Positions 1,628-40,477 of a DNA stretch of 40,477 nucleotides are shown here, piece after piece. The position numbers and the translations under genes were made by a program. Location: the NCBI GenBank assembly GCA_013151835.1, contig JAADHK010000038.1:1-40477 (forward strand), in the 5' to 3' direction. The DNA comes from Deltaproteobacteria bacterium (GTDB taxonomy: Bacteria > Desulfobacterota > Desulfobacteria > Desulfobacterales > Desulfosalsimonadaceae). The notes under the pieces were generated by a model. That model searched no databases, was not told the origin of the DNA, and saw nothing but the letters and a program-made list of their open reading frames with translations. The stretch's first letter is position 1. Every line of letters begins with the position of its first letter.

Positions 1628-1677
1628 CACCATACAGACGGTCGAGGGGCGTGTGTCATTGATCAATAAATCAAATT

Positions 1678-1706
1678 TATATATCAAACCATAACGGCCG
1701 CCGCAA
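1678..1706 (-). promoter_or_regulatory. Weak sigma-70-like promoter candidate for rpsB-tsf
   Basis: On the minus strand TTGCGG, 17 nt, then TATATA lies upstream of the rpsB leader. The spacing is ideal, but the -35 keeps only its first three consensus bases. Confidence 0.3.
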
Positions 1707-1881
1707 GGATTTTTATTTTTTTAAGGCCATCGAAATAAATATTGTAAATGCAGGAAAAGGCTGAGAAGAAAACAACACCCAGTAAAAATTTTCTGGCAAT
1801 TGTACAAAAATGAGTTTAAAAGAGAGATTAAATAAAGCAAGTATACAACATACCAACCCCAAAGCATAAACGGAGGGAAAA

Positions 1882-3096: not shown

Positions 3097-3961
3097 GCAC
3101 TGCCACCCGCTCGATTCCCGCAAGGTCCCGGACAAACGAGATCTCCGCAAACCGGCCGGATTCACGGGCAAGGCGGGCGACTTCTTCTTTCTGGTCATGC
3201 CCTATTTCAAGGAGAAGATGCCCGCCGTCCGCCAGGCAGTGCGGGGCACGGTCCATGATCTGCCGGATGGCGAAAAGGCCATCCAGCGCACCGTCCAGTG
3301 CACGGCTCGGCTCATGTGCCCTGACCTCCGGCTCAAGTGTCGGAATATCTCCGGATGGGATGTATGGTGGATTGGATACGATCAGGCAAGCCTTAAAACC
3401 GTGAGCAATGGGCGTAAGCCAGTCGCCGGCAAAAAAGTTTATTTTCTCCTTTACTCCATGTCTGCCGGCGTTTGCTGCAGCAACCGCAAGTGCCGCCATT
3501 GAAATATCCGAAGCCTGATATTGGTAGCCGGGCCTTGCGAGCGAAAGGGAGACAATAATGGCGCCCGAGCCCGTGCCTGCATCCAGAACCCGCATGGGAC
3601 AAACCGGATTTTCATCAAGAAGCCCCAAGGCGGTTTCAACAAGGATTTCGGTCTCCGGCCTAGGTATCAGGACTTGCGGAGATACGAAAAACCCACGCCC
3701 GAAAAATTCCTTTTCCCCTGTGATATAAGCCACCGGCTCACGATTGGCTCTTCTTTTAATCATTTGTTTGAATTTCGCCAGTTCGCCTGACAAAAGAGGC
3801 TGGTCATACTTCAGGTAGAGATCGATCCTTTCAAGCCCCATGGCACGGGACAGAAGAATTTCCGCAGTAAGCCTAGGGCTGTCTATACAATGATCCCTGA
3901 AAAAGGATGCTGTCCAGGACAGGAGTTTGAGTATGGTCCAGGGAGAAGATTGATTCGACAT
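3047..3961 (-). CDS. prmC: Peptide chain release factor N5-glutamine methyltransferase
   Basis: PrmC methylates the glutamine of the GGQ motif in release factors RF1 and RF2 using S-adenosylmethionine. The N-terminal helical domain (about residues 1-90) is followed by a Rossmann methyltransferase domain with DAGTGSG (127-133) and the substrate-glutamine motif NPPY (197-200). The ATG directly abuts the TAA of prfA with no spacer, so the enzyme is translated right after its substrate, a classic pairing. The length of 304 aa is slightly long, and the last 15 or so residues fall in the region overlapping the convergent alcohol dehydrogenase. Confidence 0.95.
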   Translation of the reverse strand: MSNQSSPWTILKLLSWTASFFRDHCIDSPRLTAEILLSRAMGLERIDLYLKYDQPLLSGELAKFKQMIKRRANREPVAYITGEKEFFGRGFFVSPQVLIPRPETEILVETALGLLDENPVCPMRVLDAGTGSGAIIVSLSLARPGYQYQASDISMAALAVAAANAGRHGVKEKINFFAGDWLTPIAHGFKACLIVSNPPYIPSGDIPTLEPEVRAHEPSRALDGALDGLFAIRQIMDRAPHCLADGGHLLLEIGHDQKEEVARLARESGRFAEISFVRDLAGIERVAVLRKAACRSVSCIPPSS

Positions 3962-5032
3962 TTAATTGGAGTCTGGGTTCTGGAGGGCTTCGGCCTGGTA
4001 ATATGTGGTCAGCCCGTCTATAATCTCGTCAAGATTGCCGGTCAGAACCTGTTCTAGTTTGTAGAGGGTCAAACCAATCCGGTGATCGGTTATGCGGCCC
4101 TGCGGGAAATTATATGTCCGTATTCGTTCGCTCCGGTCGCCGCTTCCCACCTGGTCTTTTCTGGTTTGCGAAATTTTTTCGTTCTGACGGCGCGTCTCCA
4201 GGTCATAAATACGGGCGCGCAGGACTTTTAAGGCCTTTGCCTTGTTCTTGTGTTGTGATTTTTCGTCCTGGCAGATGACAACAAGCCCGGTGGGAAGGTG
4301 GGTAATCCGAACTGCGGAGTCGGTCGTATTAACACATTGTCCCCCCGGCCCTGAAGACCGGTAGACATCCACCCTTATATCTTTCGCATCAATGTTGACC
4401 TCCACATCTTCCGCCTCGGGAAGCACCGCAACCGTTACAGCCGAGGTATGAATTCTCCCCTGGGTTTCCGTGACCGGAACACGCTGAACCCTGTGAGTAC
4501 CGCTTTCGTATTTCAGGCGACTGTAGACACCGGCTCCTTTGAACATGGCTATGACTTCCTTGAATCCGCCGGCATCGGTAAGATGGGATGTCATCATATC
4601 GATAGTCCAGCCATGGGTTTCGGCATAGCGAGCGTACATCCTGAACAGGTCGGCGGCAAACAGCCCTGCCTCCTCCCCCCCGGTTCCCGCCCTGATTTCA
4701 AGGATTACGTTCTTATCGTCATCGGGATCCTTTGGAATAAGGAGTACCTTCAGCTTTTTTTCAATCTTGTCCGCCCGATTCGCAAGGCTTTCAAGTTCGC
4801 TTTTAGCCATTGCCTTGATTTCAGGATCAGTGTCGGACAATAACTCACGGCTATCTTCCATCTCCGCCATGATTGATTGGTATGCCTTGAAAACCGGTAC
4901 GACCTTTGATAATTCGGCGTGTTCCCGGGCATACTTTGTATAAAGCGCCCGGTCGTTGACGATGGCGGGATCACTTAAAAGTCCTTCAACTTCAGCGTAC
5001 CGTATTTCGAGCCCTTCAAGACGTTTAATCAT
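3962..5032 (-). CDS. prfA: Peptide chain release factor 1
   Basis: RF1 ends translation at UAA and UAG. The PVT tripeptide (186-188 in [10 protein letters not shown]) is the RF1-type stop-codon reader, as opposed to SPF in RF2. The hydrolysis motif GGQ is at 230-232 ([17 protein letters not shown]). I place the start at the ATG giving [12 protein letters not shown], which fits the family N-terminus; an upstream in-frame TTG would add three residues but has no better ribosome site. The gene lies between rpmE and prmC. A terminator-like hairpin upstream (5063-5100) could lower its transcription relative to rpmE. Confidence 0.96.
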
Positions 5033-5062
5033 AGGGTACAAACCAATAATGGATCAAGGCGT

Positions 5063-5100
5063 AAAAAAGCCAAAAACAACACAGGATCATTTTTGGCCTT
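5063..5100 (-). terminator. Terminator-like hairpin between rpmE and prfA
   Basis: On the minus strand GCCAAAAA (5090-5097) pairs with TTTTTGGC (5069-5076) around a 13-nt loop, followed by TTTTTT. The form is that of a Rho-independent terminator, although the stem is AT-rich. It sits inside an otherwise co-oriented operon, so it may act as a partial terminator separating rho-rpmE from prfA-prmC. Confidence 0.5.
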
Positions 5101-5110
5101 TATAAAAATA

Positions 5111-5332
5111 TTATTTTTTGGCAGTCTGATCCTGAAACTTGGCGTATTTTCTACGGAACCGCTCGATACGGCCAGCCGTATCGACCAGTTTCTGCTTACC
5201 CGTATAGAACGGATGGCATTTGGAACAGATTTCAACCGAGACACCAGTCCTCGTGGATCCGACGGAAAATTCGTTCCCGCAGGCGCACCGGATCGATGTC
5301 TCGACATATTTCGGATGGATTTTCTCTTTCAT
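5111..5332 (-). CDS. rpmE: Large ribosomal subunit protein bL31, zinc-binding form
   Basis: bL31 is a 50S protein at the intersubunit bridge. The protein starts [12 protein letters not shown] and is 73 aa. Cysteines C16 and C18 (RCACGNEF) and C36 and C39 ([10 protein letters not shown]) form the complete zinc site of the C+ type. The start chosen here has GAGGTG five or six nt upstream; an in-frame ATG four codons earlier would overlap that ribosome site. It lies just downstream of rho and upstream of prfA, a common order in Proteobacteria. Confidence 0.95.
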
Positions 5333-5362
5333 GTAACACCTCATGGCCGTATTATATTATAG

Positions 5363-6610
5363 TTACGAATTCATTGATTCTAAAAATCCCTTATTATCCT
5401 TCGTGCCCTTCATCTTATCGAGCAAAAAATCAATGCTGTCAATAGGATTTAATTGTGAAAGGAGTTTGCGCAAAATCCAGACACGGCTCAAAACATCGGG
5501 TGCCATGATCAGATCTTCCCGCCTCGTTCCGGAGCGGTTGATATCCATAGCCGGATAAACCCGACGGTCGGCAAGCTTCCTGTCGAGGTGAAGCTCCATA
5601 TTGCCGGTCCCCTTGAACTCCTCAAAAATAACGTCATCCATACGACTGCCGGTTTCCACGAGGGCCGTGGCGATAATAGTCAGACTTCCGCCCTCCTCGA
5701 TATTTCTTGCAGCGCCGAAAAAACGCTTGGGCCTGTGCAGGGCGTTTGAGTCCACACCGCCGGAAAGGAGCTTGCCGCTGGAAGGCAGGGTTGCGTTAAA
5801 GGCTCTTGCAAGACGGGTGATGCTGTCTAAAAGAATAATCACGTCTTTTTTGTGTTCAACAAGACGCTTCGCCTTTTCAATAACCATCTCCGCGACCTGA
5901 ACATGACGTTCGGAAGGCTCGTCAAAAGTAGAGCTTATGACTTCAGCATTGACTGACCGCTGCATGTCGGTCACTTCCTCGGGGCGCTCATCGATCAATA
6001 CCACAAATGGAACCACATTCTTGTGGTTGGTGATGATGCTGTTGGCGATATTTTTCATCAACACCGTTTTACCCGCCCTGGGCGGGGAGACGATCAAGCC
6101 GCGCTGGCCGAATCCTATGGGGCTCATAAGGTCCATGATCCGCATGGAATAATTGTCGCCCTCTGTTTCGAGGCTGATCTTACGATTCGGAAAAAGGGGG
6201 GTTAAATTGTCGAAAAGGATTTTGTCCTTTGCAACCTCGGGGTCCTCGTAGTTTATGGCCTCTACCTTCAAAAGGGCGAAATACCGCTCGGAATCCTTTG
6301 GCTGACGAATCTGCCCGGAAACCGTATCTCCGGTTTTCAGGTTAAAACGGCGGATCTGTGAAGGTGAAACATAAATATCATCGGGTCCCGGAAGGTAATT
6401 GCAATCCGATGACCGCAGAAACCCGAACCCGTCCGGGAGTATCTCAAGCGTCCCTTCACCGTAAATCAGGCCGTTTTTTTCGATGTGCGCCTGGAGGAGC
6501 GAAAAGATAAGCTCCTGCTTTCTCATCCGGCCGACATTGTCGATATTGAACTTTTTCGCCATCCGGGTCAGTTCACTGATTTTTTTGTTTTTTAATTCAA
6601 TTAGATTCAT
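5363..6610 (-). CDS. rho: Transcription termination factor Rho
   Basis: Rho is a hexameric RNA-dependent ATPase helicase that ends transcription. The order is an N-terminal helical RhoN segment (1-45), a cold-shock-like RNA-binding domain (about 48-118; GFGFLRS), then the RecA-type ATPase domain with Walker [13 protein letters not shown] (171-182), Walker [15 protein letters not shown] (from 256) and the secondary RNA-binding Q-loop [10 protein letters not shown]. At 415 aa there is no insertion. It is the first gene of rho-rpmE-prfA-prmC. A good promoter lies about 260 nt upstream, leaving a long leader of the kind used for Rho autoregulation in other bacteria. Confidence 0.97.
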
Positions 6611-6870
6611 AAAATTATTCAGCCTTGTTTCATGGTAAATTAGTTAATTGGTTAAAGTTGAGGCTTTGTAAAAGCTTCATCAATTCTTACAATATAGTAT
6701 TGACCGGAAAGCAATCCATTCAGAGATGCGGGTGTTCAACACGACAAAAGCCTGAAGGCAACACAAAGATTATATGAACATTATATAAGGTTTCGGAAGG
6801 CCTGAGTCTATGGGGTTAAAAAGGAAAAAGCCACAATTTGTCCAGCGGGAAGGTTCGCTTGTTACCTAAC
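6611..6870 (-). promoter_or_regulatory. Long rho 5' leader
   Basis: If the promoter at 6871-6899 is used, the rho mRNA has roughly 250-260 nt of leader with no sizeable ORF. It is T-rich in places on the transcript strand and has a short hairpin (GCCTTCAGGC then TTTTG, near 6745-6760). Rho is known to terminate within its own leader in E. coli; whether this leader does so is inference. Confidence 0.4.
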
Positions 6871-6899
6871 TATATATGCGGATGCAGGCGTTGTGTCAA
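6871..6899 (-). promoter_or_regulatory. Sigma-70-type promoter for rho
   Basis: On the minus strand a perfect TTGACA (6894-6899), 17-nt spacer and TATATA (6871-6876). The -35 overlaps the coaE stop codon, so rho is probably transcribed from inside the end of coaE. Confidence 0.6.
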
Positions 6900-7549
6900 G
6901 CCTTTTCATCCCTGTTTTCAAAACAGGTCATCAGCATGTGATAAAACCGGTCAACCGCAATCTTTAAATCATCCCTGCTCCCTTTATTTTCAATGACAAA
7001 ATCCGATTTCCTGATTTTTTCATCTTCCGGCATCTGTATTGCAGCCAAAGCCTCCGCCTGGCGCCGGCTTACGCTGTCACGTTCCATGAGACGTTTAATG
7101 CGGATATCATGGCAGACTGTAACCACGGCTACATAATCAAAAAAATGTGAAAGCCCGGTTTCAAAAAGAAGCGGCACCTCCACGCCCACAACCGTCTCCC
7201 CTTTTTTGAGTGCTTCTTCAAAACAGGCTGTCATCAGACGAATCACCTCGGGATGTATCAGTCCCTCGAGAACATCTTTGACCGCCATGTCGGAAACAAT
7301 CATGCGTCTTAATTTCGGGCGGTCAAGAGAATTGTCTGCGCAAAGGACATCGGGTCCGAATCGGGCAACGATCCCGTTATATGCGTCGGTCCCCGGCCCA
7401 ACCGCTTTTCGTGCGAGTTCATCCGCGCTGTAGACGGTGATCCCTTTTTCAGCCAGAAGATCGCAGACGACTGATTTACCCGAAGCAATTCCCCCGGTTA
7501 TCCCAAGGGTCAATGTCGATGGTTTGCAGCCCGGATTGCCGTTAATCAC
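6896..7549 (-). CDS. coaE: Dephospho-CoA kinase
   Basis: CoaE phosphorylates the ribose 3'-hydroxyl of dephospho-CoA in the last step of coenzyme A synthesis. The P-loop GITGGIASGKS (17-27) is near the N-terminus, followed by the substrate segment ADELARKAV and the family motif VPLLFETGL. The length of 217 aa is normal. The start is a GTG preceded by AAGG; no ATG start fits better. It lies upstream of rho in the same direction and diverges from the tRNA nucleotidyltransferase. The earlier CoA gene coaBC is elsewhere in this window (34.3-35.5 kb). Confidence 0.95.
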   Translation of the reverse strand: MINGNPGCKPSTLTLGITGGIASGKSVVCDLLAEKGITVYSADELARKAVGPGTDAYNGIVARFGPDVLCADNSLDRPKLRRMIVSDMAVKDVLEGLIHPEVIRLMTACFEEALKKGETVVGVEVPLLFETGLSHFFDYVAVVTVCHDIRIKRLMERDSVSRRQAEALAAIQMPEDEKIRKSDFVIENKGSRDDLKIAVDRFYHMLMTCFENRDEKA

Positions 7550-7640
7550 GATAAAACCTTGATTTAGTTTGGGGCTATGTTCTATTGATGATGAATTCTC
7601 AACCTGTAATTAATTATGCGGAAATGGCATACCTTAAAAA

Positions 7641-9014
7641 ATGGAACTCTTCAACATAAAATTCATCCCACCCCTGCCCGGCATATATTTTGTTGGCGGA
7701 AGCGTGCGGGACAACCTGGCGGGACGGCCCTGCAAAGACATTGACATCGCGGTCAACGGCGATCCGGGATTGGTGTCCGCCCGAATTGCAGCCGCAGCCA
7801 ATGCTCATACTCCGGTCAGGATCGGCAGAGAAGGCAAGTCAATACTCAGGGTGGTTTCGGATTTATACATCTTTGACGTTGTTAAACAAAACGGCGCTTC
7901 AATTGAAGAAGATCTGGCTCAAAGAGATTTTACCGTCAACGCCATGGCCATTGAGGCCGAATCCGGCCGTCTTATAGACCCTTTGGGGGGACATTCCGAC
8001 ATAAACTCAGGCATTATCAGGCATGTTTCGAAAAACGCCTTTAAAGATGATCCCATACGGATGCTCCGGGCATTTCGCATAGGAGCGGAGCTCGGATTTT
8101 CAATCTCCAAAAAAACACTTGAAGCCATATCGATCCATGCCGACTCGATTTACCAGAGCGCGGGGGAGAGGATAGGCGAGGAATGGATACGTTTTTTATC
8201 CATACCCGGATCATTCAAATATCTTGTTCAAATGGAGACATGCGGCCTTCTTGACAAAATATTTCCGGAACTTATTGCGTTAAAACAATGCAGCCAGAAC
8301 CGTTATCACCGCTATGATGTTTTTATTCACAGCCTGGCCACATACCGCTGGATGGAAAAAATTCTCGAAAAAGAGACGCCTCGCCTTTTCAAACCGCTTT
8401 CCAATGTATCGCAAATTACCGATCCGGTGCTTATAAAACATGCGGCACTACTCCATGACATAGGAAAGCCGGCCTCAAAACAGACGGATGCAAACGGGAA
8501 TGTTCATTTTTACGGTCATGAAAAAAAAGGGGCAAAACTGGCTGAAAAGATTTCGGACCGGCTCCGCTTTTCCAACCAGGACAAAGCCTATATCGATTTT
8601 CTCATTGCAAATCACTTAAAACCGCTTTCGCTGTTTTCAGCCCATTGTCGCACTCTTTTGACCCGCCGGATATCCACCCGTTTTTTCATCCGCCACGAGC
8701 CCTGGATACCGGATCTTCTGGCTATTTCAACGGCTGACATGTCATCCAAGGGGTGCAAAAAAAAGGCTGGGAAATACCTGACCTTTATACGCGAACTATC
8801 GCGCAATCGGCGGGATTACTACCTGCCGGAAAAGGCTAAAGAACGGCTTATTACCGGCCACGACCTGATTTCATATTTTTCGCTTACCCCTTCCCCGCTT
8901 TTCAAAAAAATTTTAGAGCATGTGGACATGGAACGGCTCTCCGGAAGGATAGGGACAAAAGACGAGGCCATCCGTGAAGTTTCTGTTTTTCTTAAACGGC
9001 GCATAGACCATTGA
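7641..9014 (+). CDS. tRNA nucleotidyltransferase / poly(A) polymerase family protein with HD domain
   Basis: This is a class II polymerase of the CCA-adding family, acting on tRNA 3' ends. GGSVRD (19-24) and DID (33-35) form the nucleotidyltransferase site with its metal-binding aspartates. RDFTVNAMA and DDPIRMLRAFRI are the family B-D motifs. A C-terminal HD phosphohydrolase domain carries HDIGKP from H272. At 457 aa it fits the bacterial Cca-HD class. I cannot tell from sequence whether it adds CCA, only CC or A, or acts as poly(A) polymerase; related bacteria may split these activities. Both tRNAs in this window encode their own CCA, so it may serve repair. The ribosome site is weak. Confidence 0.88.
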   Translation: MELFNIKFIPPLPGIYFVGGSVRDNLAGRPCKDIDIAVNGDPGLVSARIAAAANAHTPVRIGREGKSILRVVSDLYIFDVVKQNGASIEEDLAQRDFTVNAMAIEAESGRLIDPLGGHSDINSGIIRHVSKNAFKDDPIRMLRAFRIGAELGFSISKKTLEAISIHADSIYQSAGERIGEEWIRFLSIPGSFKYLVQMETCGLLDKIFPELIALKQCSQNRYHRYDVFIHSLATYRWMEKILEKETPRLFKPLSNVSQITDPVLIKHAALLHDIGKPASKQTDANGNVHFYGHEKKGAKLAEKISDRLRFSNQDKAYIDFLIANHLKPLSLFSAHCRTLLTRRISTRFFIRHEPWIPDLLAISTADMSSKGCKKKAGKYLTFIRELSRNRRDYYLPEKAKERLITGHDLISYFSLTPSPLFKKILEHVDMERLSGRIGTKDEAIREVSVFLKRRIDH

Positions 9015-9045
9015 CAACAAGAAACTCATAATATAAAGCTATAAT
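9011..9045 (+). promoter_or_regulatory. Promoter region for adk
   Basis: TTGACA (9011-9016) overlaps the stop codon of the upstream gene. TATAAA follows after 15 nt (9032-9037) and a perfect TATAAT lies at 9040-9045, which lacks a good -35 at ideal spacing. A promoter here is likely, but which -10 is used is unclear. Confidence 0.45.
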
Positions 9046-9110
9046 CTTTTTTTCTCACCCGGAATTATTTTTGCCGGGCATAAAAACAAACGGCAACTAA
9101 GGAGGTATAC

Positions 9111-9785
9111 ATGAACAGCTTATTTTTCGGCCCCAACGGAAGCGGCAAAGGAACCCAGGGCTCTATTCTAAAAGGTAAATACAAGATCCCCCATATAGAA
9201 TCCGGAGCTATTTTCCGGGATAATATTTCAAAAAACACCGACCTGGGCAAACAGGCCAAATCGTACATTGACAAGGGAGACCTTGTCCCGGATGAGATTA
9301 CCATTCCAATGATTCTGGACCGCTTAAAGTCCGATGACTGTAAAGACGGATGGTTGCTGGACGGCTTCCCCAGAAATAAAAATCAGGCGATAAAGCTTAA
9401 CGAAGCATTAAATGAGGCGGGAATCAGCCTCGATGTCGTGGTCGAAATCCTTCTGGATCGCGAAATTGCAAAGAACCGGATAATGGGTCGCAGGCTCTGT
9501 GTCAACGACAACAACCACCCCAACAACATCTTTATCGACCCCATAAAACCCGACGGGGACAAATGCAGAGTATGCGGCGGTGGGCTTACGACCCGCGCGG
9601 ACGACCAGGACGAAGATGCTATTAACAAGCGTCACGGTATTTATTATGATAGTGAAACCGGCACTCTTGCCGCAGCCTATTATTTCAGGGATATTGCTGA
9701 AAATAATACTGAAATGAAATATATCACCCTTGACGGAAAAGCGAGCGTTAAGGAAGTTACCGACGAACTCGTTTCCAAACTATAG
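9111..9785 (+). CDS. adk: Adenylate kinase
   Basis: It interconverts ATP + AMP and 2 ADP in the cytoplasm. The P-loop GPNGSGKGTQ (7-16) departs from the common GxPGAGKGT by N9 and S11. The AMP-site motif DGFPRN is at 84-89. The LID region has C152 and C155 (CRVC) and, in place of a first CxxC, C130 and H136 (CVNDNNH), so a zinc site of C-H-C-C type is possible. The length of 224 aa suits the long-LID class. A very strong AAGGAGG precedes the ATG. It sits alone behind its own promoter and upstream of rpsU. Confidence 0.93.
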   Translation: MNSLFFGPNGSGKGTQGSILKGKYKIPHIESGAIFRDNISKNTDLGKQAKSYIDKGDLVPDEITIPMILDRLKSDDCKDGWLLDGFPRNKNQAIKLNEALNEAGISLDVVVEILLDREIAKNRIMGRRLCVNDNNHPNNIFIDPIKPDGDKCRVCGGGLTTRADDQDEDAINKRHGIYYDSETGTLAAAYYFRDIAENNTEMKYITLDGKASVKEVTDELVSKL

Positions 9786-9818
9786 GCGGGCGTGAAAGTA
9801 TAGTGCATATCAAAAGAC

Positions 9819-9848
9819 TTGACATGTGCGTCCGCATGACGATATAGG
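9819..9848 (+). promoter_or_regulatory. Sigma-70-type promoter for rpsU
   Basis: A perfect TTGACA (9819-9824), 18-nt spacer and TATAGG (9843-9848) sit about 65 nt before the rpsU start. Confidence 0.5.
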
Positions 9849-9912
9849 GTGTCGTTACGGATTCCGGCCTGCCGGGCGGGATCTGAATTTAAAGGTAAAG
9901 GGGGGGAAATAT

Positions 9913-10128
9913 TTGAAGGAAATCACGGTTAGAGTCGATGACAATGACCTTGAAAGGGCTATGCGTATTCTGAAAAAAAAGATTCAGAATGATGGCCTGT
10001 TCAAGCGGCTTCGTATGAAGAAAAATTACGAGAAGCCATCTGAATATCGACGCCGGAAAAAACGCGAGGCATTGAGACGTCAGCGGATTGCCTTAATCAA
10101 AAAAAAGACGCGATTCCAGAGAACATAA
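9913..10128 (+). CDS. rpsU: Small ribosomal subunit protein bS21
   Basis: bS21 is a small basic 30S protein that helps mRNA binding near the anti-Shine-Dalgarno. The protein LKEITVRVDDNDLERAM, then GLFKRLRMKKNYEKPSE and a basic tail, matches the family along its length at 71 aa. I set the start at a TTG because AAGGGGGGG lies 5-10 nt before it and the family N-terminus begins exactly there; an in-frame ATG 29 codons upstream would add residues that do not resemble bS21. The gene has its own promoter and is closed by a strong terminator, so it is a single-gene unit. Confidence 0.92.
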   Translation: MKEITVRVDDNDLERAMRILKKKIQNDGLFKRLRMKKNYEKPSEYRRRKKREALRRQRIALIKKKTRFQRT

Positions 10129-10156
10129 TTTTATACAATCCAACTATGCATCTAAC

Positions 10157-10193
10157 AAAACCCGGCTGCTAACTCTTGCAGCCGGGTTTTTTC
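10157..10193 (+). terminator. Rho-independent terminator after rpsU
   Basis: AAAACCCGGCTGC (10157-10169) pairs perfectly with GCAGCCGGGTTTT (10178-10190) around an 8-nt loop, and the T run continues. It ends only about 14 nt before the folC start, so folC must rely on read-through or a promoter I cannot locate. Confidence 0.93.
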
Positions 10194-10206
10194 TTGGCCA
10201 ACGAAG

Positions 10207-11562
10207 ATGAAAAAATCATACGACAAATGTTTAAATGAGATGTACGCCCTGAGGCGCTTTGGAATCAAACTCGGACTGGATGTTATCGGCAACATTCTTT
10301 CCGGCCTGGGCAACCCGCACCTTTGTTTTTCGGCCATCCATATCGCCGGAACCAACGGCAAAGGCTCCATTGCCTCGGCCCTCGCCTCGATCCTGAACGC
10401 AGCCGGTCACAAGGTCGGGCTTTACACCTCGCCTCATCTTGTCCGATTCAACGAACGGATTTGCATAAACAACCGGCAGGTAAGCGACGATGATGTTGTG
10501 GAAGCCTGGCAAGCTGTAAAGAAGGTTCATACGGGAAGCCGGGAGCCGACCTTTTTCGAATACACTACGGCCATGGCATTGTATTTATTTAAAAAAACCG
10601 GCGTGGAATTAGCGATCATGGAAACCGGCATGGGCGGACGGTTAGATGCCACGAATATTGTCAAACCCGCTCTTTGCCTTATTTCAAACATTTCTCTTGA
10701 ACACCGGTTTTATCTCGGCAACACAATATCTGCAATCGCCGGGGAAAAAGCCGGGATAATCAAACAAAAAACGCCGGTTGTATGCGGCATAACCCAGCCC
10801 TCCGCCATTGATGTCATAGAAAAAAATGCCGCCAAACACGCGGCCCCGCTCTTTTTGCTTAAAAAAGATTTTCGGGTGAGAAGTTACGGGAAAAACACAT
10901 TCACCTATTACGGCAAAGAGGTCAGGTGGCCGAAAATGTGCACCCCGCTTCCGGGAGATCATCAAAAGGATAATGCGGCCCTTGTATTGGCTGCATGCGA
11001 AATATTGATGAAAGAGGACCCGCTTTTAACAATTGATGCAATACGAAAAGGGCTTGCAGCCGTAAGATGGCCAGGAAGGCTTGAAATCATCGGCAAACCT
11101 AACGATATTCATCCTGAAATTATTCTTGACGGGGCACACAACCTTGACGCGACCCGCAAACTTGCAAAGTTTCTCAAAACTTATACCGCCGGCCGTAAAA
11201 TAACGCTGATCATCGGCATTCTTGATGACAAGCCTTATAAAGGAATGCTGAATGCAATCATCCCCCTGTGTAACAGGATAATCATCACCGAGCCTGATAT
11301 CGACCGGGCGTTTCCCCCTGCGCGTCTCCTGCCTGCCGTACTAAAATTCACCCGGCACACGGAAATAATTCCCCGGGTCAAGGATGCTGTTGATCATGCC
11401 ATTAACACAACTTCATCAGAGGACATGGTCTGCGTGGCAGGCTCACTATATGTTGTCGGTGAGGCTCGACAATTCCTGGAACAGCTTAAACTTGTATCCG
11501 ATGTGAATTATCATAAGAAACGGGTTCTGCCCCAACTAAAGCTTGGCTCTGAGGGCTCGTAA
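10207..11562 (+). CDS. folC: Folylpolyglutamate synthase / dihydrofolate synthase
   Basis: FolC is a Mur-ligase-type ATPase that joins glutamate to dihydropteroate and extends the glutamate tail of folates. The ATP loop GTNGKGS is at 48-54. TSPHLVRFNERI and ETGMGGRLDATN are family signatures, and DGAHNLDA lies in the C-terminal domain. The length of 451 aa is complete. The ATG lacks a strong ribosome site but matches the family N-terminus. folK, another folate gene, is at 22.1 kb. The TAA stop lies at the edge of the palindromic repeat zone (GGCTCGTAAAAAATCC). Confidence 0.94.
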   Translation: MKKSYDKCLNEMYALRRFGIKLGLDVIGNILSGLGNPHLCFSAIHIAGTNGKGSIASALASILNAAGHKVGLYTSPHLVRFNERICINNRQVSDDDVVEAWQAVKKVHTGSREPTFFEYTTAMALYLFKKTGVELAIMETGMGGRLDATNIVKPALCLISNISLEHRFYLGNTISAIAGEKAGIIKQKTPVVCGITQPSAIDVIEKNAAKHAAPLFLLKKDFRVRSYGKNTFTYYGKEVRWPKMCTPLPGDHQKDNAALVLAACEILMKEDPLLTIDAIRKGLAAVRWPGRLEIIGKPNDIHPEIILDGAHNLDATRKLAKFLKTYTAGRKITLIIGILDDKPYKGMLNAIIPLCNRIIITEPDIDRAFPPARLLPAVLKFTRHTEIIPRVKDAVDHAINTTSSEDMVCVAGSLYVVGEARQFLEQLKLVSDVNYHKKRVLPQLKLGSEGS

Positions 11563-11582
11563 AAAATCCGTTAACCTGTTAA

Positions 11583-11711
11583 AGATGGCACAAGTATAAA
11601 GTTCCATATACAAGGCGTAGCGGTATCGCGAAAGCGGAGGCATACATAAAGTATTCCGAGCATTTCGCGACCCGCTACAACGCAGTAGATGGGACTTTTT
11701 ACGACGCCATC
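11583..11711. repeat. Full-length dispersed palindromic element, copy A
   Basis: This 129-bp imperfect inverted repeat has outer arms GATGGCACAAGTATAAAG and the complement of CTTTTTACGACGCCATC. The inner stem is 11616-11632 paired with 11663-11678 (gtagcggtatcgcgaaa with tttcgcgacccgctac). A short palindromic centre, GGCATACATAAAGTATTCCG, joins them. It begins 21 nt after the folC stop. There is no ORF inside and no obvious target duplication. It shares layout and arms with the copy at 31359-31485. Confidence 0.85.
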
Positions 11712-11721
11712 AATATTTAGC

Positions 11722-11750
11722 TTGCTTTTATGCATATAAGTGTTTATCTT
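11722..11750 (+). promoter_or_regulatory. Candidate promoter for the cold-shock gene
   Basis: TTGCTT, a 17-nt spacer and TATCTT precede a leader of about 120 nt. A long 5' leader is usual for cold-shock mRNAs. Each hexamer keeps four consensus bases. Confidence 0.4.
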
Positions 11751-11876
11751 ACTCTATCAATTAAGTTCCGTGTTAATTTACGGAAGGGTTTCTTTCTGCA
11801 GGTGTTATCCGTTTATCAAACGCCATATCATCCTTCAGTTTGTAACGTTGAAATTTTTTGAAAGGAGGTTGATATT

Positions 11877-12084
11877 ATGATAAATGGAACTGTTAAGTGG
11901 TTTAATGATCGCAAGGGTTTTGGATTCATCGAACAGGAAAACGGACCGGATGTATTTGTGCATCATGCATCACAGCGCAATCAATGCAACCGGGTTTAAA
12001 ACGCTTAGTGAAGGTGCCAGCGTAACCTTTGACATCGAGCAAGGGCCAAAAGGTCCTGCCGCTGCCAATGTGACCGTTGTCTAA
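11877..12084 (+). pseudogene. CspA-family cold-shock protein gene broken by a frameshift
   Basis: Frame one reads [20 protein letters not shown] and continues to PDVFVHH, containing RNP1 (KGFGFI) and most of RNP2 (VFVHH). It then runs out of frame and stops at 11997-11999 after 40 codons. The remaining part of a normal cold-shock domain ([16 protein letters not shown] through [13 protein letters not shown]) is intact in the next frame, to the TAA at 12082-12084. Relative to a family protein there are 7 extra nt at catcatgcatcac (11961-11973), which looks like a short tandem duplication. The ribosome site (AAAGGAGG), promoter and terminator are all intact, so the break is recent, a sequencing error, or bypassed by frameshifting. 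An intact protein would be about 66 aa and bind single-stranded RNA. Confidence 0.85.
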
Positions 12085-12101
12085 CCTTTTTAAGAGCAAT
12101 T

Positions 12102-12137
12102 AAAGGCATCTCCCGTTGCACGGGAGATGCCTTTTTT
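12102..12137 (+). terminator. Rho-independent terminator after the cold-shock gene
   Basis: AAAGGCATCTCCCG pairs with CGGGAGATGCCTTT around TTGCA and is followed by a T run. It ends just before the ribosome site of the next small gene. Confidence 0.93.
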
Positions 12138-12153
12138 AATCCAGGGAGAATCA

Positions 12154-12315
12154 ATGGCAAAACCCAATTACCAGTTTAAAAAACGTCAAAAAGAATTGGC
12201 CAAGAAAAAAAAGAAAGAAGAAAAAAGGCTTCGCAAGTTGAAAAACAAAGAGGATGAAGCCAATGAAACCGAAAAAGACCTTACCCCCTCAACCGAGGAC
12301 CAGAAAGAAGAGTGA
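12154..12315 (+). CDS. Small Lys/Glu-rich conserved-type protein of unknown function
   Basis: The protein is 53 aa, beginning MAKPNYQFKKRQKELAKK, with a basic helix-forming N-terminal half (about 20 Lys/Arg) and an acidic tail. CAGGGAGA five to ten nt before the ATG supports this start; an in-frame ATG nine codons earlier falls in the terminator. Short proteins with this MAKPNY-type start are, to my recollection, often found beside cold-shock genes, but I know no function. The basic face could bind RNA. Its position between the cold-shock terminator and an S1-domain gene suggests a shared RNA-related role. Confidence 0.72.
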   Translation: MAKPNYQFKKRQKELAKKKKKEEKRLRKLKNKEDEANETEKDLTPSTEDQKEE

Positions 12316-12345
12316 TCCTCCGGCGCCAATTGTTCAGGCTGCACA

Positions 12346-12834
12346 ATGGTTATAATCGAATATAAAAAAAACAGCGCCCCCGGAAAACAGGTTGATTTTA
12401 TGGAGGGCCAAAAAGTGACATTGCGTATCTCCGCTCAAACCGATATGGGTTTTATCGCTCTTATCAACGGCACCCACAATGGCGTCCTGTATAAAAATGA
12501 AATATTTCAGCAGTTAAAAATCGGACAGGAAATCGACGGGTTTATAAAAAAAATCCGCGATGATAAAAAAATAGACCTCTGCCTGCAAAAGCCTGGTTAT
12601 ACGGCCATCGGCGCCCTTTCCATAAAGATCATGGATACCCTGCGACAGCAGGGCGGATTTATCAAGGTCACCGATAATAGCCAGCCCCAGGCAATCGCCG
12701 ACATTTTCGGCATAAGCAAAAAAGCATTCAAAAAGGCCGTGGGCAACCTTTACAAAAAAAGGCTGATCACCCTTGAAGAAGACGGCATACGTCTGCGAGA
12801 AAAAAAACGAAAATTTGCCGGCCGTTATTTATAG
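12346..12834 (+). CDS. S1-like RNA-binding protein with C-terminal winged helix (short CvfB/YitL-like)
   Basis: Residues about 19-80 form an S1/OB-type segment (VTLRISAQTDMGFIALING, then GQEIDGFIKKIRDDKKIDL), and residues about 85-155 form a winged helix (IADIFGISKKAFKKAVGNLY, KKRLITLEEDGIRL). This is the C-terminal half of the CvfB family, whose usual members have about 280 aa with additional N-terminal S1 domains. Here only 162 aa are encoded and no in-frame extension upstream restores the missing domains, so the gene is either a naturally short form or 5'-truncated. No strong ribosome site precedes the ATG; Met19 is an alternative start. It probably binds RNA, and its neighbourhood supports this. 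Confidence 0.75.
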   Translation: MVIIEYKKNSAPGKQVDFMEGQKVTLRISAQTDMGFIALINGTHNGVLYKNEIFQQLKIGQEIDGFIKKIRDDKKIDLCLQKPGYTAIGALSIKIMDTLRQQGGFIKVTDNSQPQAIADIFGISKKAFKKAVGNLYKKRLITLEEDGIRLREKKRKFAGRYL

Positions 12835-12954
12835 TAAAATCAAATTATTGCAATGCCATAATAACTGGGACCGGCCTTATCACGAAGCTGAATATGCCTA
12901 TGCCTGGAGTTAAAAACTAAAAACACAGCACTTACCCCGGCACGGCCGTGAACC

Positions 12955-35805: not shown

Positions 35806-36375
35806 TTATTTTTCGGCAGCATTTTTCCCAAGCACCACAAACTGATTACAAAAAAACTGAAACCGTTTATATTCCAATATGGTTAAATCAAATTCATTCG
35901 CCAGATTCTCAAACCTGCGCCTGTTATAGATCACCACATGATCATCCACGGCTGATTTGGCAAAAAGGCCGATCTTCGCGCCGGCAGTATGAACAATATC
36001 GTTTCCAAACGGGGTCGGAGTTGTGATAATGATTTTGCCGTCGGATGTTAACAATCTTACCAGTTGCTCAATTAAAAATTTCTGATTCCAGATATGCTCG
36101 ACAATCGCAATCATGACTATCAGATCAAACTGCTGATCAATTTCCAATGCGTCATTATCCAGATCTCTTGCAATAAAATTGGCTTGGGGGAACTTTTTTT
36201 TAAGATCGGCAAATCGTTTTGTACTTAACTCCACACCACAATAGCTATTAATCTGATCCCCAAATTTTTGAAGGATAATGGAATTTCCACAGCCGATATC
36301 AAGCACATCTCCTCTGATATAGTCAGAAATCAACGAATGCCGCCAGTCGGCAAGCATTTTACTCAACAGTGCCAA
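35806..36375 (-). CDS. Class I SAM-dependent methyltransferase
   Basis: The Rossmann motif I VLDIGCGNS is followed by a motif II acidic region (CGVELSTKRF), FDLIVMIAIVEHIWN and DGKIIITTPTPFGND, typical of the Methyltransf_11/23 group that modifies small molecules or glycans. It is about 189 aa. I prefer a TTG start (36375) because AAGGGGG lies 6 nt before it; another TTG six codons earlier contains that ribosome site. The gene is clearly richer in A and T than its neighbours, hinting at transfer. Position after the sugar genes suggests a polysaccharide or lipid substrate (inference). Confidence 0.8.
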   Translation of the reverse strand: MALLSKMLADWRHSLISDYIRGDVLDIGCGNSIILQKFGDQINSYCGVELSTKRFADLKKKFPQANFIARDLDNDALEIDQQFDLIVMIAIVEHIWNQKFLIEQLVRLLTSDGKIIITTPTPFGNDIVHTAGAKIGLFAKSAVDDHVVIYNRRRFENLANEFDLTILEYKRFQFFCNQFVVLGKNAAEK

Positions 36376-36399
36376 TGATCGCCCCCTTTGCAATGCCCG

Positions 36400-36957
36400 T
36401 TATAAAAGTTTCAGGCGCCCTGTTTCATACACATACCGGCTCCGGCAGGCCGGACATGAAAGATCTTTATCCAATTTTTCACCGCAGGCACACACCCACC
36501 CCGCACGGGCCGCAGGATTGCCGAAAACCAGGGCATGGTCCGGCACGTCCTTTGTGACAACAGAGCCCGCGCCCACAAAGGCGTAAGCCCCTATGGTATT
36601 TCCACACACGATTGTGGCGTTTGCGCCTATGGTAGCGCCTTTTTTAACCAGCGTCGGCCGTATCTCGTCCATACGCCGAATATGAGCACGGGGGTTATAC
36701 ACATTGGTGAAAACCACGGACGGCCCGCAGAAAATATCGCCCTCGAAACGCACCCCCTTGAAAATCGACACGTTGTTCTGAATCTTGCAGCCATTTCCTA
36801 TGGAGACATCCGGCCCTATGACAACGTTCTGGCCGATATTGCACTGACTGCCGATGCTCGTTCCGGCCATGATGTGGCTAAAATGCCATACCCTGGTTTT
36901 TGGCCCTATGATAACCCCATCGTCAATATAGCTCGATTCGTGGATAAAAAATTCCAT
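36400..36957 (-). CDS. Left-handed beta-helix N-acetyltransferase, WbpD-like
   Basis: Hexapeptide repeats (YIDDGVIIGPKTRVWHFSHI, IGQNVVIGPDVSIGNGCKIQ, NVSIFKGVRFEGDIFCG) form the acyl-CoA-binding helix. FTNVYNPRAHIRRMDEIRPT and KKGATIGANATIVCGNTIG match WbpD/WlbB, which acetylates the 3-amino group of UDP-GlcNAc(3N)A in O-antigen synthesis. A C-terminal Zn-ribbon-like CAC...CPAC segment is present. It is 185 aa from MEFFIHESS; in-frame codons further upstream overlap the preceding dehydrogenase. It begins 5 nt after that gene. Confidence 0.85.
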   Translation of the reverse strand: MEFFIHESSYIDDGVIIGPKTRVWHFSHIMAGTSIGSQCNIGQNVVIGPDVSIGNGCKIQNNVSIFKGVRFEGDIFCGPSVVFTNVYNPRAHIRRMDEIRPTLVKKGATIGANATIVCGNTIGAYAFVGAGSVVTKDVPDHALVFGNPAARAGWVCACGEKLDKDLSCPACRSRYVYETGRLKLL

Positions 36958-36962
36958 CGGAT

Positions 36963-37907
36963 TTATGCCCCGCGCTTTAAAAAAGGATGATACTCTCCCC
37001 GAATACCGACACTTTCGGCATTCCGTATTGCATAAACAGTTTCTATACACGGCCTGGCAACAGAGGCACTAAACCCTCCACCGCTCAGAATGTCTTCATA
37101 ACTTGTAGTGTGAAGGTCCGTAAAGCCACCTGAAAACTCAAGCTCATCTCCGTTTACCGCGATGGACCGAAAAGTCTTCTGCCCCTTTTTCGCAATCTCT
37201 TCCGGCAATGTCGAGGCATCAACACTTAAAAACCAGCGCACGCGCGCGTTTTTCAGTTCCAGAAAACCGGCTGCGGTATTTTGGGTCAGCAGATGCACGA
37301 TATTTTCATGAACCGGCCCGAAAACCCAGATGAGCATGTCGAAGAAATGGATTCCGATGTTTGTGGCAATGCCTCCGGATTTATGAATGTCCCCCTTCCA
37401 GGATATGAAATACCATCTCCCTCTTGAAGTGATATAGGAAAGATCAATATCATATTTCTGATCCTTGGGCCCGTTTTCCACCCGTGCCTTTAAGGCCCGT
37501 ATAGCCGGGTGAAGTCTAAGCTGCAGGATGTTGTAGACATTCTTTCCGGTCTCCTTCTCCATCTCTTCAAGCCCGTCAATATTCCAGGGGTTCAGCACAA
37601 GCGGCTTTTCGCAAATGGCATGGGCATGGCTTCGCAGGGCAAACCGGATATGCGCGTCGTGAAGGTAATTGGGAGAACATATGGATACATAATCGACTCC
37701 GTTATCCTTTCGTCTCAACTTGTCCACATGCCTGTCGAAACGCTCGAACTCGGTAAAAAAATGCGCCTCCGGAAAATAACTGTCGATTATTCCCACGCTG
37801 TCGCTCGGGTCCATTGCAGCAATGAGCCGGTTCCCCGTATCCTTGATGGCCTTCATGTGCCTCGGGGCAACGTATCCCGCAGCTCCGAGCAATGCAAAGC
37901 TTTTCAT
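36963..37907 (-). CDS. Gfo/Idh/MocA-family oxidoreductase, WbpB-like
   Basis: The N-terminal Rossmann start MKSFALLGAAGYVAPRHMKA binds NAD; SICSPNYLHDAHIRFAL and HAICEKPLVLNPWNIDGL carry the conserved EKP lysine. The C-terminal domain has GGIATNIGIHFFDMLIWVFG, with the GxxxDxxxHxxD-type pattern. This closely recalls WbpB/WlbA, the UDP-GlcNAcA 3-dehydrogenase. It is 314 aa. AGGA is 8 nt from the ATG. Next to the WbpD-like acetyltransferase and a WecB/WbpI-type epimerase it fits the UDP-diacetamido-uronate pathway. Confidence 0.85.
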   Translation of the reverse strand: MKSFALLGAAGYVAPRHMKAIKDTGNRLIAAMDPSDSVGIIDSYFPEAHFFTEFERFDRHVDKLRRKDNGVDYVSICSPNYLHDAHIRFALRSHAHAICEKPLVLNPWNIDGLEEMEKETGKNVYNILQLRLHPAIRALKARVENGPKDQKYDIDLSYITSRGRWYFISWKGDIHKSGGIATNIGIHFFDMLIWVFGPVHENIVHLLTQNTAAGFLELKNARVRWFLSVDASTLPEEIAKKGQKTFRSIAVNGDELEFSGGFTDLHTTSYEDILSGGGFSASVARPCIETVYAIRNAESVGIRGEYHPFLKRGA

Positions 37908-37928
37908 TTATGATTCCTTATAATTACT

Positions 37929-39074
37929 TTAGTTGTTCGAACTATGGAACATTAAAAACCATTCTAAAAGCAGTTCAACTATCTTCCGGCCTGCGTGCCC
38001 GTCTCCGTAGGCCTGCCCGGTAAAATTACCGGAGCCCGATTTTTTGACCGCAGCCACAATGGCATCGGTCGCGGCTCCCACAATAACATTGCACCCTGAA
38101 TCAAGTGTTTCCACCCATTCCGTCTCGTCCCTGAGCGTAACGCACGGCTTCGAAAACCAGTAAGCCTCCTTTTGCACGCCGCCGGAATCGGTCAGTATCA
38201 TGCGCGAGTTCTGTTCAAGAACCAGCATTTCAAGATAAGAAACGGGATCGATACACCTGATATGGGGCAGATCCAGTCCGAGCGCCGCAATCTTTTGCCT
38301 GGTATTCGGGTGCAGAGGGACAACAACCGGAAAACACTCAGCGCCTATGATATCAAGGGCCTGAAATATAGACCTTAATCTTTCCGGGTCTCCGGTGTTT
38401 TCGGCCCGGTGAACCGTGGCCAGAATATATTGGCCGGAAATTAGACCAAGGCTCTCCATTATCTCGCTCCGTCCGTCCGCAAGCCCCTTATGGAAAAGAA
38501 CGGAATCATACATCACGTCCCCGACCAGACGAACCTGCGAATCGATCCCCTCGTGTGAAAGGTTTTCCACCGCAGTCCGTGTGGGACAAAATAACAGGTC
38601 TGAAATATGATCGGCCACCACCCGGTTGATCTCCTCGGGCATCCTTTTATTGTAGCTCCTGAGTCCGGCCTCGACATGGGCAACCGGAATATGGAGCTTT
38701 GATGCGGCCAGGGCTCCTGCAAGAGTTGAATTCGTGTCCCCGTACACCAGCACCAGATCGGGACTTTCTTTCTTGAACACATCCTCAAGCCCCATCAGCA
38801 TCCTGCCGGTCATCTCTCCGTGGTCGCATGAATTTACACCTAAATTCACGGCCGGCCCGGCCGGCCGCGGGATCCCCAGCTTATCAAAAAAAACACCGCT
38901 CATGGAGTGTTCATAGTGCTGACCTGTATGAACCATCTCTTCAACAATACGCGGGCCTGAATTTTTCTCGTTATAATCCCTGATCGCCCTGCTCACCACC
39001 GCAGCCTTTATAAACTGGGGACGCGCGCCGACAACGGTTATTATATGGATTCGATCCCGCTTACCATTCATCAT
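37929..39074 (-). CDS. UDP-N-acetylglucosamine 2-epimerase family protein (WecB/WbpI-like)
   Basis: This GT-B-fold non-hydrolysing epimerase has VVGARPQFIKAA, VYGDTNSTLAGALAASKLHI, HVEAGLRS, RMPEEINRVVADHISD, TVHRAENTGDPERL and LTDSGGVQKEAYWF. About 381 aa from MMNGKRDRIHI; residues further upstream are in frame but lie in the gap after the preceding gene and lack a ribosome site. WecB makes UDP-ManNAc; WbpI acts on UDP-GlcNAc(3NAc)A. The adjacent WbpB and WbpD homologues favour the latter, which sequence alone cannot settle. Confidence 0.9.
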   Translation of the reverse strand: MMNGKRDRIHIITVVGARPQFIKAAVVSRAIRDYNEKNSGPRIVEEMVHTGQHYEHSMSGVFFDKLGIPRPAGPAVNLGVNSCDHGEMTGRMLMGLEDVFKKESPDLVLVYGDTNSTLAGALAASKLHIPVAHVEAGLRSYNKRMPEEINRVVADHISDLLFCPTRTAVENLSHEGIDSQVRLVGDVMYDSVLFHKGLADGRSEIMESLGLISGQYILATVHRAENTGDPERLRSIFQALDIIGAECFPVVVPLHPNTRQKIAALGLDLPHIRCIDPVSYLEMLVLEQNSRMILTDSGGVQKEAYWFSKPCVTLRDETEWVETLDSGCNVIVGAATDAIVAAVKKSGSGNFTGQAYGDGHAGRKIVELLLEWFLMFHSSNN

Positions 39075-39142
39075 AGATCTCGTTCTCCGCCAGATGAATT
39101 CAGAAAATCTCCGGCATACGAAATTCACAAAAGATCCCGGGG

Positions 39143-40318
39143 CTAAACCCGGCCACAGTCCTTTTCATACGAATCCCATTTAACACCTTTGAATATGGCC
39201 GGAACATTTATCTTTTCCTTAAACTTAAAAACGGTTTCCATCATCTGCGCAAGGACATCTTCGGTAAGGTAATGCGGAGTTAAACCGATATCCGTAAGAC
39301 CGGTATGTACGGCGTTATAATAATGTTCCTCCGCCTCTTTTCGCGGATTGGGTAAATTTTTCACCTTCACATCCAGTCCGAAGCGTTTTCCGAGCTTGCG
39401 TACCCTTTCCGCAAGCTCGTTTACCGAGAAGAGTTCAACAAACTGGTTAAATATCCTCAAGGTTCCCTGATCAGGCGGATTTTCCAGGGAAAGCCGCACA
39501 CACTGAAGCGTGTCCCTGATATCCAGATACCCCCGGGTCTGCCCTCCCTTGCCGTAAACCGTAAGTGGATAACCGATAACGGCCTGGACGATAAAACGGT
39601 TTAATACCGTCCCGAACAATTCGTCATAATTAAAAAACGGTAAAAGCCGTTCATCTCCCGCAGTCTCGTCCGTGTGCATCCCGTAAACCGGCCCCTGCAT
39701 GAGATCCGTCACCTTCAGACCCCACATGCGCACGTAAAACCACAACAGGTCGGTATCCATTATCTTGGTGGTATGATACAGACTCCCGGTCTGCCGGGGA
39801 AAGAGAAACTTATCCTTTTTTCCCTTATGCTCGATGGTAATCCATCCCTCCTCGATATCGATATTCGGCGTTCCATATTCCCCCATCGTGCCGAGCTTGA
39901 TAATATGGGCTTTCGGAACAAACTCCTTTACCGCGAAGATAGTGTTTGCCGTGACTTCCAGATTGTTTTTAAGCGTCTGCATCGCGGTCCTTCTGTTCAA
40001 CATGGAATATGGCGCCGAGGGCTGTTCCGCATAATGGATCACTGCTTCCGGGCGAAATTTGCAAAAAAGTTCCGAGATGAAATCCCATTCACTAAGGTCG
40101 CCTATGAATACTTCCACTTTTTTGCCCGACCGTTTTTCCCATATCCTCGCCCGTTCATTTAGATTCGGCACGGGCCAGAGCGGTTCCGCGTCTGTTTCCC
40201 TGCAATTATTTCTCCTGAGATAATTATCCGCTACCGCAACCTCGTGCCCGCAGGCGCTCAGATTCATGGCGGTGGGCCAGCCCAGATAGCCGTCTCCACC
40301 CAATATCAGTACGCGCAT
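39143..40318 (-). CDS. UDP-sulfoquinovose synthase-like SDR enzyme (SQD1/SqdB/Agl3 family)
   Basis: SQD1-type enzymes build UDP-sulfoquinovose from UDP-glucose and sulfite. The NAD motif GGDGYLG is at 7-13. HYAEQPSAPYSM and KLGTMGEYGTPNIDIEEGWI match the SQD1 active site; catalytic T144, Y181 and K185 align closely with T145, Y182 and K186 of the plant enzyme. VYGKGGQTRGYLDIRDTLQC and NPRKEAEEHYYN are strong family signatures. It is 391 aa and complete, with GGAG 5 nt before the ATG. No sulfolipid synthase (SqdX/SQD2) is visible, so the sugar may go into a surface glycan. Confidence 0.87.
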   Translation of the reverse strand: MRVLILGGDGYLGWPTAMNLSACGHEVAVADNYLRRNNCRETDAEPLWPVPNLNERARIWEKRSGKKVEVFIGDLSEWDFISELFCKFRPEAVIHYAEQPSAPYSMLNRRTAMQTLKNNLEVTANTIFAVKEFVPKAHIIKLGTMGEYGTPNIDIEEGWITIEHKGKKDKFLFPRQTGSLYHTTKIMDTDLLWFYVRMWGLKVTDLMQGPVYGMHTDETAGDERLLPFFNYDELFGTVLNRFIVQAVIGYPLTVYGKGGQTRGYLDIRDTLQCVRLSLENPPDQGTLRIFNQFVELFSVNELAERVRKLGKRFGLDVKVKNLPNPRKEAEEHYYNAVHTGLTDIGLTPHYLTEDVLAQMMETVFKFKEKINVPAIFKGVKWDSYEKDCGRV

Positions 40319-40356: not shown

Positions 40357-40477
40357 TCAATGTGAAGAAGGCCAGTAGCTCGTGTCCGGATGCTCACTCT
40401 CATCGCATTCGTTTAACAGTCCATTTGTTTTTAAAAATTTTTTCAGCCCGGCTTTGGAGAGCCTGGGCTCATTTTCC
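40357..40477 (-). CDS. C-terminal end of a gene cut by the window edge
   Basis: On the minus strand an open frame runs in from the edge for 39 codons, including RLSKAGLKKFLKTNGL and ending HPDTSYWPSSH before the TGA. The stop lies 38 nt upstream of the sulfoquinovose-synthase-like gene in the same direction, so it is probably part of the same sugar operon. Too little is present to name a family. Confidence 0.55.
   Translation of the reverse strand, partial: ENEPRLSKAGLKKFLKTNGLLNECDESEHPDTSYWPSSH

Follow-up and report, generated by a model that had tools for sequence, protein, structure and literature searches.

Sulfonated sugars constitute a large pool in the sulfur cycle. As producers of sulfoquinovose, the accessible part of a 2026 review names phototrophs and certain archaea (PMC12890257). 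The accessible part of another review gives [ST]MG-xn-Yx3K as the signature of the enzyme family of SQD1, SqdB and Agl3, and describes Pen as a UDP-GlcNAc 5,6-dehydratase (PMC8987622). For Agl3, the available text of a published study reports that the reaction passes through UDP-Glc-5,6-ene, which accumulates when sulfite is scarce or absent, and that Ala at His95, Arg101, Met145, Tyr182 or Lys186 leaves no activity, whereas the mutant with Thr144 changed to Ala keeps full activity; when 5,6-ene formation was assayed, R101A showed no activity (PMC4388408). The R101A primer given in the same text spells AEQ-[A]-SAP, so that Arg101 is the Arg of the motif EQRSAP (PMC4388408). Here we describe a gene for an SQD1-like short-chain dehydrogenase/reductase (SDR) near the right end of contig JAADHK010000038.1 of a Deltaproteobacteria bacterium (assembly GCA_013151835.1); this contig, complete at 40,477 nucleotides, is hereafter called the window. 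The protein has Pro in place of the Arg, belongs to a distinct clade, and is encoded next to the cut gene of a dehydratase that accompanies this clade at most loci. On balance we favour the reading that the SQD1-like clade and the adjacent dehydratase make one C6-sulfonated UDP-hexose for a surface polysaccharide; the protein family, the residue change, the partnership of the genes, the polysaccharide setting and the association with sulfur genes are observed, and from these we infer what is made, from which substrate, and how the two enzymes share the work.

The product of the SQD1-like gene shares approximately 51% identity with plant SQD1, and phmmer matched its residues 2–382 to the solved SQD1 structures 1qrr and 1i24 (E = 1e-136). 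The AlphaFold2 (AF2) model likewise gave SQD1 as the closest fold (Z = 52.3, rmsd 2.3, 375 aligned residues; next fold Z = 31), with a mean pLDDT of 81.6 but values below 50 at residues 144–160 and 170–184, around the active site. These results bear out the original prediction, made from the DNA alone, that an SQD1-type enzyme is encoded here. The counterparts of SQD1 Thr145, Tyr182 and Lys186 are all present, residues important in Agl3 are kept (His95, Met145, Glu147, Tyr148, Ser180, Tyr182, Thr185 and Lys186), and the family signature appears as TMG and YHTTK. The score against the UDP-sulfoquinovose synthase model NF041015 was 455.7 bits (cut-off 575); because Arabidopsis SQD1 itself reaches only 484.7 bits and also misses the cut-off, this shortfall was dropped as an argument against membership. 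In the own genome one gene matched the UDP-sulfoquinovose synthase model over its full length, the five other matches scoring at most 40.5 bits.

The intact Thr, Tyr and Lys to which the original prediction had pointed are thus present, but they do not support UDP-sulfoquinovose synthesis, as the Thr mutant of Agl3 is active, its Arg101 mutant is inactive, and the window protein reads EQPSAP, with Pro at this very site. Because this defining residue was examined and found to be replaced, we refrain from classifying the protein as a UDP-sulfoquinovose synthase; judged by its sequence, it represents a distinct clade of the SQD1 family and probably continues to add sulfite. Across 131 aligned rows the site held Pro in 95 and Arg in 36, and nothing else; 93 Pro rows are left once the distant L137 (Natrinema) and L023, which both deviate elsewhere in the motif, are set aside. 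Arg is found, among others, in Arabidopsis SQD1, in the product of the SqdB-like gene on Sinorhizobium meliloti pSymB and in Rhodobacterales relatives; when all 47 Rhodobacterales matches were typed, 44 had Arg and 3 had Pro. A tree built from 120 rows below 90% identity placed the 86 core Pro rows on a single branch (SH-aLRT 100) beside plant SQD1. By both tree and fold the protein falls inside the SQD1 family, and not with the non-sulfonating SDR epimerases, a grouping that the original prediction had named as counting against it. Because a Jannaschia genome (G090) carries both types, the Pro and Arg enzymes probably do different jobs. For 11 of the 80 named loci, at which the simple gene caller gave no separate SQD1 open reading frame (ORF), the protein was taken by tblastn for the alignment; a 183-aa piece (L020, genome G057) was left out, although the Fisher test treats G057 as a genome with a Pro gene. 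Since several loci are the same genes as named ones (e.g. L011 and L042), counts over rows below 90% identity were preferred.

The usual neighbour of a Pro-type gene is a CapD/PglF/Pen-like SDR dehydratase (PF02719), most often directly upstream. Within the examined locus DNA (rows below 90% identity), this partner was found at 77 of 86 Pro loci and at 0 of 31 Arg loci, the flanks being only ~1.5 kb in 26 of the latter; when the comparison was restricted to short flanks, the counts were 11/13 for Pro and 0/30 for Arg loci. Nine Pro rows lack it in that DNA. One of them is the window itself, where the contig end holds a C-terminal fragment that matches the end of the L097 partner at 57% identity across 35 aa (E = 1.4e-10 in a small database, 3.9e-7 in another search); the remainder of the cut gene had no match elsewhere in the own genome. 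At L012, also one of the nine, the partner lies 4 kb off on the same contig, and for L055, L073 and L098, three more of them, a partner match of at least 377 bits was found elsewhere in the genome. Among 60 genomes (own and relatives), partner matches of at least 459.6 bits (next 230) were present in all 9 that have a full Pro gene and in no other (Fisher P = 4e-9, kinship between genomes ignored), and among 149 Rhodobacterales genomes, matches of at least 302 bits (next 211) occurred in exactly the 3 with a Pro gene; at these score levels, none of the genomes in either set had the partner alone. The partner is constant while the other neighbours vary among Pro loci, and by analogy with other surface-sugar systems, a constant pair amid changing neighbours would catalyse two steps in the same nucleotide-sugar pathway. 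Long open frames at L081 and L104 raised the suspicion of a gene fusion, but no fusion was found. A third, GalE-like SDR (cluster c2) often adjoins the pair (31 of 95 loci, e.g. L024:10915-11898), and conceivably acts at C4 to give an epimeric product, for instance a sugar of the sulfofucose type.

Among solved structures, the partner matched Pen of Bacillus thuringiensis best (6bwc, 290 bits), with lower scores for FnlA (235 bits), CapE (232), FlaA1 (203) and PglF (183), and Pen was again the top match for a Chloroflexota partner. In a partner tree that included Pen, FnlA, CapE and FlaA1, Pen was the nearest solved row by path; this placement is unsure, as branches were long, two partner rows split off and one generic row fell inside. 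Partners are mostly 336–403 aa in length, and in place of the Pen-type motif DK-xn-Yx3K they carry Met-x3-Lys, as in PglF and WbpM. Pen, FlaA1, PglF and FnlA all use UDP-GlcNAc, on which CapE also acts.

The Arg essential in Agl3 is missing and a relative of a 5,6-dehydratase nearly always adjoins; therefore, ene formation and sulfite addition are suggested to be split between two enzymes. In such a pathway, the dehydratase would oxidise C4 and take water from C5/C6 to give a 5,6-ene or 4-keto-5,6-ene, the SQD1-like enzyme would re-oxidise C4, add sulfite at C6 and reduce C4 again, and glycosyltransferases would build the resulting sulfonated UDP-hexose into the surface polysaccharide. Pen and Pal, two SDR enzymes, reportedly share a 5,6-ene, which would be a precedent for a split pathway. 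UDP-GlcNAc is the substrate of the solved enzymes closest to the partner, so that UDP-N-acetyl-6-sulfoquinovosamine may be what the pair makes; the other candidate is plain UDP-sulfoquinovose, and we lean slightly to the GlcNAc-derived sugar. More tentative, and in our estimate possible but unlikely in all its parts, is a specific and widespread version of the pathway, in which UDP-GlcNAc-5,6-ene is formed by a Pen-like dehydratase, and an SQD1 relative without dehydration of its own then adds sulfite to yield UDP-N-acetyl-6-sulfoquinovosamine for the surface polysaccharides of sulfur bacteria and others.

In this organism, dissimilatory sulfur metabolism would be the source of sulfite, and some other hosts would obtain it through a phosphoadenylyl-sulfate (PAPS) reductase whose gene lies close to the pair. 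A dsrA gene above the cut-off is present in the own genome, in support of the sulfite-rich sulfate-reducer physiology that the original prediction had assumed, and dsrA exceeded the cut-off in 32 of 51 genomes (own included), among them records of Nitrospirae, Magnetococcales and Gallionella. PAPS reductase-like genes lay 1–7 kb from the Pro gene at six loci (L060, L062, L067, L081, L082 and L092), compared with 0.26 expected from genome density (P = 3e-7, kinship ignored). This expectation applies 43 matches of at least 75 bits in 221 Mb (counted by hand, CysD-like genes included) to 1.33 Mb, that is, all Pro-locus DNA with duplicates and two distant loci included; the PF01507 scan covered 50 of the 80 named loci, chiefly those with long stretches of DNA, and included all six at which a PAPS reductase had been noticed beforehand. 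The six loci all come from genomes in which no dsrA exceeds the cut-off, 19 of 50 genomes being of this kind (Fisher P = 0.0017, kinship ignored), and four of the five neighbours scanned with the phosphoadenylyl-sulfate reductase model NF002537 were above its cut-off, L067 being below. Since PAPS reductase yields sulfite and spends the sulfate donor of O-sulfation, this association points to sulfite use. Genes for adenylyl-sulfate (APS) kinase (CysC-like) were also seen near the pair, at L032:6121-6681, L090:12158-12742 and L097:8010-8597, L097 also being the site of one of the window gene's closest relatives.

Regarding the destination of the sugar, Pfam assignments of 121 neighbours (sampled in random order from 349 eligible ones) included 10 of the Wzx type, 8 in each of the two main glycosyltransferase families, 4 NeuB and 4 O-antigen ligases. 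As a reference for SqdD we used the glycosyltransferase neighbouring the SqdB-like gene on S. meliloti pSymB, taken as SqdD by its position and its GT8 family, in a locus that we take to be that for sulfoquinovosyl diacylglycerol (SQDG). An SqdD-like transferase was found at 0 of 88 Pro rows and 9 of 31 Arg rows, SqdX/SQD2 not having been searched for; the best match in the window itself had E = 0.31, the window stopping 159 bp upstream of the SQD1-like gene. A sulfolipid synthase next to the cluster, which the original prediction had also held to speak against it, was thus not seen as an SqdD-like transferase in the 88 Pro rows, and together with the neighbour families this supports the proposed setting of surface polysaccharide rather than sulfolipid.

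These data have to be weighed against other explanations. The protein could be an ordinary UDP-sulfoquinovose synthase that joins UDP-glucose and sulfite and tolerates Pro101, the dehydratase making a second sugar of the same glycan such as N-acetylquinovosamine (QuiNAc) or N-acetylfucosamine (FucNAc). Its high similarity to SQD1, the remaining Agl3-important residues and the association with sulfur genes (dsrA, PAPS reductase) would all agree with this, but the Arg/Pro split tracks the partner gene, and a partner that is fixed while other neighbours are variable is usual for one pathway and not for two sugars, so that we think this explanation unlikely, if quite conceivable. That the clade no longer sulfonates and acts without sulfite, as a 4-reductase, 4-epimerase or other tailoring SDR on the 4-keto sugar of the dehydratase, seems distinctly unlikely: the Agl3-essential Arg is indeed gone, and CapD/PglF-like 4,6-dehydratases generate a 4-keto-6-deoxy sugar that a second enzyme then uses, but the SQD1 fold and sequence class (Z 52 vs 31), the kept TMG motif, the dsrA genes in 32/51 genomes and the occurrence of PAPS reductase-like neighbours only in genomes without dsrA over the cut-off argue for sulfite addition. 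The original prediction had placed the enzyme within a cluster for a diacetamido-uronate sugar. Solved-structure matches confirmed the WecB/WbpI-, WbpB- and WbpD-like genes downstream of it (WbpI type: 8sxv, E = 9e-117, the next match being a GlcNAc 2-epimerase at 9e-84; WbpB: 3oa2, E = 1.5e-115; WlbB/WbpD-type acetyltransferase: 3mqg, E = 1.6e-62), so that the WbpI, WbpB and WbpD functions of the pathway to the diacetamido-uronate ManNAc3NAcA are all represented in the window, on a common strand and with short gaps. In the 94 loci outside the window, some of them short and some duplicates, such genes were rare (WecB/WbpI-like at 8, WbpB-like at 3 with 24–27% identity, WbpD-like at 5); the tie is therefore local, these genes look accessory to the Pro clade, and a functional link of the enzyme to them is highly improbable.

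Several observations weigh against the preferred reading of a sulfonating pair. Loss of the Arg could signal lost sulfonation instead of divided labour. On the side of the partner, the catalytic Tyr of Pen is Met in 71 of 72 rows of a motif scan (one row gave no call); by motif, because Met stands where Pen has Tyr, it resembles the PglF/WbpM 4,6-dehydratases, and structure comparison, tried as a way to choose between Pen and FlaA1, tied the two (Z = 42.0 and 41.6) and gave no separation. The genomes of L035, L065, L075 and L079 show weaker partner matches (92–199 bits) or none, and G057, with a 77%-identical piece that does not cover residue 101, has a best partner match of 202 bits. As for sulfite, no PAPS reductase was found close to the gene in the examined locus DNA for 13 of the 19 genomes in which no dsrA exceeds the cut-off, the copy at L067 is 6.7 kb away, on the opposite strand and below the CysH cut-off, and PAPS reductase also occurs near two Arg-type genes. 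This association was spotted first and tested afterwards, and sulfate reducers dominate the sample partly since the query is one. The APS kinase genes, and sulfotransferase-like genes recognised by eye near some loci, may serve ordinary O-sulfation.

The features at the right end of the window are summarized in the table below. The ORF coordinates of the original prediction were borne out, all on the minus strand, and its genes stand as listed; the Arg-to-Pro change and the cut dehydratase gene at the contig end had been overlooked. The true start of the WbpI-like ORF may be downstream of the listed GTG, and the overlap of the WbpB- and WbpD-like ORFs (36963-37050) arises from a listed GTG, the true start of the latter probably being a later ATG. 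A scan for promoters and terminators gave signals no better than those of shuffled sequences.

Table. Genes of the same-strand run at the right end of the window
Feature	Position	Strand	Remark
SQD1-like SDR enzyme, 391 aa, Arg101-to-Pro clade (EQPSAPYSM)	39143-40318	minus	TMG and Y-H-T-T-K motifs retained
Partner dehydratase (Pen/PglF/CapD-like), terminal 39 codons and stop	40357-40476	minus	gene cut by contig end
Non-hydrolysing UDP-diNAcGlcA 2-epimerase, WbpI-like	37929-39128	minus	solved-structure match
WbpB-like 3-dehydrogenase (GFO/IDH/MocA)	36963-37907	minus	solved-structure match
WbpD/WlbB-like hexapeptide N-acetyltransferase	36400-37050	minus	solved-structure match
S-adenosylmethionine (SAM) methyltransferase, last gene of same-strand run	35806-36393	minus	

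Some further relatives were also encountered. L137 (Natrinema plasmid pNVE414, 5001-8170) encodes a distant haloarchaeal SQD1-like protein with Pro (AAQPSAPY), followed by two more SDR genes, and is a possible parallel case. At L138 (Rhizobium rhizogenes pC6.5b, 3797-7378), the gene for a divergent SQD1-like protein, 35% identical to that of the window, is flanked by two glycosyltransferase genes. At L136 (Rhodococcus qingshengii plasmid, 1430-12945), the gene run that contains an SqdB-like gene also codes for a SulP anion transporter, a glycosyltransferase and an alkyl sulfatase-like protein. At L139 (Rhodobacteraceae M382 plasmid, 5001-8764), another possible non-lipid sulfosugar locus, genes annotated as sulfotransferase and PAPS reductase come after an SqdB-like gene of the Arg type.

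A literature search of limited coverage gave no paper on the Pro clade or its dehydratase pairing among the matches listed. If the proposed pathway is true, many non-photosynthetic bacteria, including sulfate reducers, would also be producers of sulfonated sugars, by a second route and perhaps with a second sugar. Labelling Pro-clade genes as 'UDP-sulfoquinovose synthase' is unsafe, and EQPSAP together with the partner gene provides a simple marker for the clade.

Compared with SQD1, SqdB and Agl3, the window protein shares the fold, the length, the TMG and YxxxK motifs and the His, Met, Glu and Tyr relevant in Agl3, and the proposed use of the Pro clade resembles that of Agl3 in being a glycan and not a lipid; it differs in the Pro at 101, in the adjoining dehydratase and in that no SqdD-like transferase was found in its 88 rows. 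Moreover, Agl3 alone makes UDP-sulfoquinovose in vitro according to the available text (PMC4388408), unlike the pair proposed here. The Pen/Pal system of the B. thuringiensis pseudaminic acid pathway is similar in that two SDR enzymes would act in sequence and Pen is the best solved match of the partner, whereas the catalytic Tyr is replaced by Met in the partner, an SQD1-like enzyme stands in the place of Pal, and sulfite addition is proposed in place of 4-keto-6-deoxy sugar formation. With the UDP-GlcNAc 4,6-dehydratases PglF and WbpM, the partner has in common the Met-x3-Lys that replaces Tyr-x3-Lys, but it is short and less similar to solved PglF. Finally, WbpI-, WbpB- and WbpD-like genes follow the SQD1-like gene as in the WbpA-B-E-D-I route to UDP-ManNAc3NAcA, yet this gene set seldom lies beside the Pro clade, which is accompanied at most of its loci by the partner dehydratase.

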